Assembly (NCBI GenBank): GCA_022825925.1
Contig: JAJDVW010000037.1
Location: 1-64,000, forward strand
Length of the DNA: 64,000 nucleotides
Direction of reading: 5' to 3'
Source: Pseudomonadales bacterium
Lineage (GTDB): Bacteria; Pseudomonadota; Gammaproteobacteria; Pseudomonadales; Azotimanducaceae
A program made the translations under genes and the position numbers. This document shows positions 1,780 through 3,131 of the stretch, one piece after another. Under the pieces are notes generated by a model. That model ran no database searches, was not told the origin of the DNA, and saw only the letters and a program-made list of their open reading frames with translations. Position 1 is the stretch's first letter, and every line of letters starts with the position of its first letter.

Positions 1780-1861
1780 GCTGGATTCCGGGGCGGGCAG
1801 TGCGCGTATCGTCGCGTGAGCGGTTGCTTTTTCGCAAGGGAGCGCAGAGAATCCGCCCGCC

Positions 1862-1957
1862 ATGAAGATCAGCGAGTCGAATCGTCAGGCCGTGCCCGAG
1901 AGACGGATCCGCATCGGACGCCGCTCGGGCTATTGGTTCGCCTACCCGCCCCGTTAG
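1862..1957 (+). CDS. Putative aromatic-amino-acid leader peptide MKISESNRQAVPERRIRIGRRSGYWFAYPPR
   Basis: 31-codon ORF ending in a Y-W-F-A-Y cluster, directly upstream of DAHP synthase and followed by a hairpin and an intrinsic terminator. Confidence 0.7.
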   Translation: MKISESNRQAVPERRIRIGRRSGYWFAYPPR

Positions 1958-1975
1958 CGCGGCGCACTCGCTTCT

Positions 1976-2001
1976 CGAGAGGCCGCGCGGGCTGCCTCTC
2001 G
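1976..2001 (+). promoter_or_regulatory. Leader hairpin between leader peptide and terminator
   Basis: Perfect 8-bp stem CGAGAGGC / GCCTCTCG. Confidence 0.6.
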
Positions 2002-2005
2002 ACCG

Positions 2006-2044
2006 AACCCCGACAGGTAGCCGCCTTCGGGGTTTTTGCGTTTT
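2006..2044 (+). terminator. Intrinsic terminator (attenuator) upstream of DAHP synthase
   Basis: Perfect 8-bp stem AACCCCGA (2006-2013) / TCGGGGTT (2027-2034) followed by TTTGCGTTTT. Confidence 0.75.
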
Positions 2045-2054
2045 GGAGGGTCCC

Positions 2055-3131
2055 ATGCACACACCGACGGAGAATCTCAACGTGCTTGCCAACGAGGTCC
2101 TGCCGACTCCGTTCGCGGTCAAGGCGGCGCAGCCGGCGCCGGAGGCGGTCATGGATCGGGTCACCGACGCGCGCCACCAGGTACGCAAGATCCTGGAGCG
2201 GCGCGACCACCGCCTGCTCGTGGTCGTGGGCCCGTGCTCCATTCATGACGTGGACGCCGCGCTGGAATACGCCCGCCGGCTGAACGCCGTCGCGGCCCGG
2301 ACGAGTGACAGCCTGCTCGTCGTCATGCGCGCCTACTTCGAGAAGCCCCGCACGACCGTCGGCTGGAAGGGGCTGATCAACGATCCGTATCTCGACGATT
2401 CGTTCCACATCGAGGACGGCATCCAGATCGCGCGCCGGCTGCTCATCGACCTCGCCGCGATGGGCCTGCCGCTGTCGACGGAGGCGCTCGATCCGATCAT
2501 GCCCCAGTACCTGCACGACCTCATCGCGTGGTCCGCCATCGGCGCCCGGACGACCGAGTCGCAGACCCACCGGGAGATGGCCTCGGGGCTGTCGTCCGCC
2601 GTGGGGTTCAAGAACGGCACGGACGGCTCCCTGGACGTCGCGATCAATGCCCTGCGTTCCGTGACCAAGCCGCACCGGTTCCTCGGCATCAACCAGTCCG
2701 GCCAGGTCGCCGTCATCCACACGCGCGGCAACGACCTCGCCCACATCGTCCTGCGCGGGGGGCACTCCGGGCCGAACTACGACGACGGGGCGATCGCCTC
2801 CTGCGAGGCGGAACTCCGTGCCGCGGACCTTCCCGAGAACATCATGGTCGACTGCTCGCACGCCAACTCGAGCAAGGACCATCGGAACCAGCCCGCGGTC
2901 GCCCGCGACGTCGCCGCGCAGATAGAAGGCGGGAACCGCTCGATCATCGGGATGATGCTGGAGAGCAATCTCTCCGAAGGCAGCCAGAAGCTGGGAGACG
3001 ACCTGAGTTATGGCGTCTCGATCACCGACGCGTGCATCGGGTGGTCGGAAACGGAGTCGCTGTTGCTGGAGCTGGCCGACCGGATGGGCGACGTGCTCGT
3101 GCGGCGCACGGACCTCGCCCGCGCCGGCTGA
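2055..3131 (+). CDS. aroG: 3-deoxy-7-phosphoheptulonate synthase (class I DAHP synthase, AroG/AroF type)
   Basis: LLVVVGPCSIHDVDAALEYA, MRAYFEKPRTTVGWKGLINDP, ARTTESQTHREMASGLS; ORF track frame 2043..3131, with internal start MHTPTEN. Confidence 0.93.
   Translation: MHTPTENLNVLANEVLPTPFAVKAAQPAPEAVMDRVTDARHQVRKILERRDHRLLVVVGPCSIHDVDAALEYARRLNAVAARTSDSLLVVMRAYFEKPRTTVGWKGLINDPYLDDSFHIEDGIQIARRLLIDLAAMGLPLSTEALDPIMPQYLHDLIAWSAIGARTTESQTHREMASGLSSAVGFKNGTDGSLDVAINALRSVTKPHRFLGINQSGQVAVIHTRGNDLAHIVLRGGHSGPNYDDGAIASCEAELRAADLPENIMVDCSHANSSKDHRNQPAVARDVAAQIEGGNRSIIGMMLESNLSEGSQKLGDDLSYGVSITDACIGWSETESLLLELADRMGDVLVRRTDLARAG

Follow-up and report, generated by a model that had tools for sequence, protein, structure and literature searches.

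Control of the first shikimate pathway step is generally attributed to end-product inhibition and repressors. The trp, his, phe, thr, and ilv leaders of enteric bacteria combine control codons, alternative helices, and an intrinsic terminator, and more than one amino acid is sensed by those of ilv and thr. Attenuation upstream of a DAHP synthase gene has been described in C. glutamicum, in which the aroR leader with Phe-Tyr-Phe precedes aroF (Neshat et al. 2014, as reported in PMC11802643; leader in PMC4046766); its expression reportedly changed with Phe limitation and not with Tyr (PMC11802643). A uORF with Phe codons was predicted for Acholeplasma aroF (uORFC-13-1 motif; PMC8632094), and a prediction for Shewanella aroF cites an attenuator sensing tRNA-Tyr (PMC2659441). 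In Pseudomonas, P15 is listed by Rfam as an sRNA gene with no assigned function (RF00627), and it was only suggested, from synteny, to be perhaps a riboswitch (PMC2527527).

The window analyzed here (the whole stretch of 64,000 nucleotides, part of a 5.7 Mb draft genome) carries an aromatic-rich leader ORF, competing hairpins, and an intrinsic terminator upstream of aroG (Table 1). The C. glutamicum system shares with this locus an aromatic leader peptide, attenuation, and a DAHP synthase gene, but it belongs to another phylum, with no Trp codon reported and a response shown for Phe only. The uORFC-13-1 motif likewise places a uORF and a terminator, both predicted, ahead of a DAHP synthase gene, but with Phe codons only, another structure, and another phylum. 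Compared with the enteric leaders, which are similarly built, the window differs in that all three aromatics are represented at the shared pathway entry and in that the switch helices lie past the stop codon. The Rfam amino acid leader families, T-box, and riboswitches gave no match in the window, either at the gathering score or at a weaker E-value threshold. The locus is thus an attenuator of a known kind with precedents, its three-amino-acid control set is unusual, and its distribution is wider than the window suggested. The sequence-only reading had called a Tyr-Trp-Phe leader unusual, which is fair, but an aromatic leader before a DAHP synthase gene is not unprecedented in view of the Phe-Tyr-Phe codons described for aroR.

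Table 1. Features of the aroG leader region, in coordinates of the window.
Feature	Position	Strand	Evidence
Predicted promoter, TTGCTT (1824-1829), 17 nt, GAGAAT (1847-1852)	1824..1852	+	Comparative prediction
Leader ORF, 31 codons, tail ...RRSGYWFAYPPR*	1862..1957	+	ORF translation; at least 4 aromatics in the last 16 codons in 43/45 leaders
Putative control codons TAT TGG TTC GCC TAC (Tyr Trp Phe Ala Tyr)	1931..1945	+	Read in the sequence
Segment B (GCGCGGC), directly after the stop; partner 1982-1988	1957..1963	+	B:C co-varies, z -8.6; z -7.3 within D-type groups
Segment C: 1975-1983, left arm of C:D; 1982-1988, partner of B	1975..1988	+	
Segment D: 1994-2002, right arm of C:D; 1990-1997, antiterminator with E	1990..2002	+	D:E, z -6.7
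Segment E (AGGTAGCC), in the terminator upper stem and loop; partner 1990-1997	2015..2022	+	Co-variation
Intrinsic terminator E:F (AACCCCGA/TCGGGGTT), U-tract 2033-2037	2006..2037	+	Folding and alignment
Entire post-stop switch, match of covariance model R2	1955..2037	+	52.8 bits, E 2.7e-13, with the window itself in the training set
aroG, class I DAHP synthase, proposed regulated gene	2055..3131	+	TIGR00034, 502 bits; NF009395, 524 bits

The leader ORF encodes MKISESNRQAVPERRIRIGRRSGYWFAYPPR*, and the run of Tyr, Trp, Phe, Ala, and Tyr codons that the sequence-only reading had pointed out near its end is present, as is a DAHP synthase gene downstream. A perfect hairpin past the stop codon was also correctly noticed, although it had been given as 8 bp (1976-2001), and the C:D stem is 9 bp, pairing 1975-1983 with 1994-2002. 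The perfect 8-bp GC-rich terminator stem (2006-2013 with 2027-2034) lies ahead of aroG as described, followed by its T-run. The post-stop region folded better than shuffled sequences (z -3.1), and the folding of the whole leader was not exceptional (z -1.1).

It is highly probable that aroG is controlled by a ribosome-mediated transcription attenuator, which adjusts expression to how much charged tRNA-Tyr, tRNA-Trp, and tRNA-Phe is available. In the proposed mechanism, a shortage of any one of these amino acids would stall the ribosome at the Tyr-Trp-Phe-Ala-Tyr codons, leaving segment B, past the stop codon, free to pair with C; D would then pair with E, the terminator would not form, and aroG would be transcribed. 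When all three aromatics are plentiful, the ribosome would reach the stop codon and cover B, upon which C:D would pair, E:F would form, and transcription would end ahead of aroG. A conserved leader reading all three aromatics at one gene would amount to a single-RNA sensor of pathway output.

A putative promoter was recognized by comparison among relatives, its predicted -10 element ending 9 nt upstream of the leader ATG. A -35/-10 pair with the -10 end 6-10 nt before the leader ATG was found in 42/45 leaders, and the mean promoter score was 10.8 vs. 8.0 in shuffled upstream sequence; a strict consensus promoter scan found none. Since the -10 element lies this close to the ATG, the comparison suggests that the leader transcript is leaderless or nearly so. 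Upstream, a divergent gene on the minus strand (559-1863) encodes a Tet(A)-like MFS efflux protein or transporter, whose top NCBIfam match was under the cut-off. Its start codon shares two bases with the leader ATG, so the promoter and 5' ends of the two transcripts may interact.

Conservation was evaluated in relatives from the same uncultured Pseudomonadales family, collected by an AroG search, which provided about 50 readable aroG upstream regions. The same layout, namely an aromatic-rich leader, a hairpin past the stop codon, and an AACCCCG...CGGGGTTTT terminator, was found in 44 of these. The leader tails include GYWFAYPPR, GSWFGYRLR, GWWFTYFKS, and GYFFFVT, as well as GGWWAGYYFFSG, GYWLGFWFAFSKP, NWRYFAYFFVR, and WLGYYYFIDL. 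For statistics, one near-duplicate was dropped and two leaders from named contigs were added, giving 45 leaders. Within their last 16 codons, W occurs in 41, Y in 45, F in 40, and all three in 36, whereas W, Y, and F occur together in 3.0% of background ORFs from the same loci. The leaders have on average 5.5 aromatics in this stretch vs. 1.1 in the background, and at least four are present in 43/45 leaders vs. 4% of 1565 background ORFs. Near the stop codon, W is absent in a few relatives (L117, L135, and L041), as is F in others (L016 and L030). Covariance model R2 matched 173/207 family genomes, a count that includes thrS and other sites. In two relatives (L114 and L130), the leader has decayed (e.g., ACWISAYLFFKS) and the terminator is missing, which are apparent losses of the attenuator.

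The competing helices were evaluated by comparing the pairing energy within each sequence with that across sequences, using 37 sequences from which near-duplicates and divergent cases had been removed. Co-adaptation was observed for B:C (z -8.6), C:D (z -6.0), and D:E (z -6.7), and none was observed in the same 37 sequences for the control pairings B:D, B:E, and C:E or for the Trp-Phe codons with the terminator flank. The co-adaptation persisted under permutation within D-type groups, which is a partial control for relatedness. An unsupervised scan of all alignment column pairs placed E:F, C:D, and D:E on top, with B:C also among the few helices listed, and the alignment pair counts exceeded those of all 500 shuffles, both in the number of paired cells and in the covariation score. 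Column 49 in D co-varies with both its C partner and its E partner, as expected for a segment that can pair with either of the two. Applied to the MAFFT alignment, RNAalifold returned the terminator alone because the alternative helices compete, and the column scan and explicit pair counts were used instead. These data give a candidate his-type switch built from five segments of the RNA (B to F), in which C:D and E:F would terminate and B:C and D:E would antiterminate. His-type attenuators use, without translation, a helix between a leader segment A and segment B. For a candidate A:B helix, z was -1.6 to -2.1 in the family, and the RF00627 structure includes a hairpin equivalent to it.

As in attenuators generally, a leader with control codons for a product of the pathway, replaced by Thr codons before thrS, is followed by an intrinsic terminator between leader and gene, and the co-varying helices D:E and B:C are incompatible with E:F and C:D. 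When the transcript was ended before F with B unmasked, B:C plus D:E formed. A ribosome at the stop codon was simulated by masking the first 14 nt of the transcript ended before F; in this equilibrium estimate for 45 sequences, mean D:E pairing decreased from 7.1 to 3.9 and C:D increased from 0.8 to 4.1. The balance shifted from D:E to C:D in 31/45 sequences and in the opposite direction in 3/45. Ribosome position therefore shifted the helix balance in silico, though in the window itself the equilibrium shift was partial, with D:E decreasing from 9.1 to 6.1 pairs, so the outcome must depend on which helices fold first as the RNA is transcribed. Together, the family-wide conservation and covariation strongly support what had been read from the window alone, namely that the DAHP synthase gene is preceded by a ribosome-mediated attenuator with multi-aromatic control.

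Outside the family, several of the strongest model sites precede DAHP synthases of another lineage, and VAYWYFGYGYFSQEPSCL and SWWFSYGFYFSQTSGHA are examples of their leaders; the named genomes with such sites include Oceanobacter, Halomonas, Billgrantia, Alcanivorax, Marinobacter, and Pseudomonas. Weak order-level matches (roughly E >1e-7) were set aside as mostly generic CCCCG/CGGGG terminators, many of them on both strands. The Pseudomonas sites (L254-L259, L282-L299) coincide with Rfam RF00627, "sRNA P15", with one site per genome in 18/18 genomes. In each of these genomes, P15 spans hairpins, a terminator, and a leader ORF with aromatic codons (..FYFGYWFSHWRA* or a close variant of it), with a DAHP synthase gene downstream, and each leader keeps Y and W, then F or Y, immediately ahead of the stop codon. 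The window's leader has the same elements, but its DAHP synthase belongs to another lineage and the window gave no RF00627 hit at the curated gathering score; this leader would work like P15 and is not a member of RF00627. In a tree of DAHP synthases, the leaders fall on two separate clades, and leader-less AroG of Pseudomonas and others groups with the window's clade. In a literature search confined largely to openly accessible papers, no description of P15 as an attenuator or of a Trp-Tyr-Phe leader was found, nor anything on PA1750 together with a leader peptide. These comparisons give P15 a concrete candidate function. Attenuation by W, Y, and F codons is probably a general control of aromatic pathway entry across much of Pseudomonadales, which would have originated on, or been transferred to, two or more DAHP-synthase lineages, with P15 being the prematurely terminated leader and the switch a module with exchangeable control codons, such as Thr before thrS.

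Several alternatives may be considered. The likeliest of them is that attenuation is real and a single amino acid, probably Phe or Tyr, effectively sets the level while the other codons are bystanders. We regard this as unlikely, though it agrees with C. glutamicum AroR, whose F-Y-F leader responded to Phe and not to Tyr (PMC11802643), and with the few relatives lacking W or F near the stop; retention of all three aromatics in 36/45 family leaders and of Y and W, with F or Y next, in 18/18 Pseudomonas leaders argues against it. Arrest of the ribosome by the nascent peptide on a free aromatic compound, as with TnaC, in place of codon starvation, would explain why the Pseudomonas tail FYFGYWFSHWRA is strongly conserved as a peptide, but the order and spacing of aromatics vary freely in the window's family, and use of the scaffold with Thr codons before thrS fits tRNA charging. 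This mode of action is accordingly considered improbable.

The sequence-only reading had further proposed that the Trp-Phe codons (GGTTCG, 1935-1940) pair with CGAACC (2004-2009) as the antiterminator. The 6-nt complementarity is perfect in the window, but it is broken even in the nearest relative, the nearest relatives having AGAACC or GAGAACC at the flank; this pairing does not co-vary (z +0.1), and its codons would be covered by the stalled ribosome, which makes it very improbable as the antiterminator. The co-varying antiterminator is instead 1990-1997 with 2015-2022, which would be released by the post-stop helix of 1957-1963 with 1982-1988. It is scarcely credible that a chance ORF lies ahead of an ordinary terminator, or that the terminator belongs to a neighboring gene: GC-rich DNA can yield short ORFs and hairpins, and the unexceptional folding of the full leader would suit this reading, but the arrangement is conserved family-wide with co-variation. 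Moreover, since the upstream gene is divergent, the terminator is not that of an upstream gene and could act only on transcripts entering aroG. By this comparative evidence, the leader and putative switch upstream of aroG are not a chance arrangement, and attenuation by the supply of three charged tRNAs is the preferred reading.

The covariance model search of the window's genome returned two strong sites, aroG and thrS. The leader at the thrS site (G000:C74:76620-76710, minus strand; locus L175/L196) is the Thr-rich MRSSSVTATTTTTRTTGWAV*, and TIGR00418 is the top match over the first 330 residues of the gene downstream. No aromatic leader of this kind was found at trpE and pheA of this genome. 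The predicted control codons track the downstream gene, with Thr before thrS and aromatics before aroG, which points to a scaffold in which control codons are interchangeable. Similar switch sites occur before thrS in other family genomes (L176-L183, L186, L187, L192, and L193). A third class of model matches (L184, L185, and L189) lies upstream of ABC-transporter-like genes, where the short ORFs have no single-amino-acid run. At a further locus (L227), a Ser/Phe-rich leader-like ORF (DSLFTRGSFFTQNSFSMQDSLLP) is located upstream of the same kind of switch.
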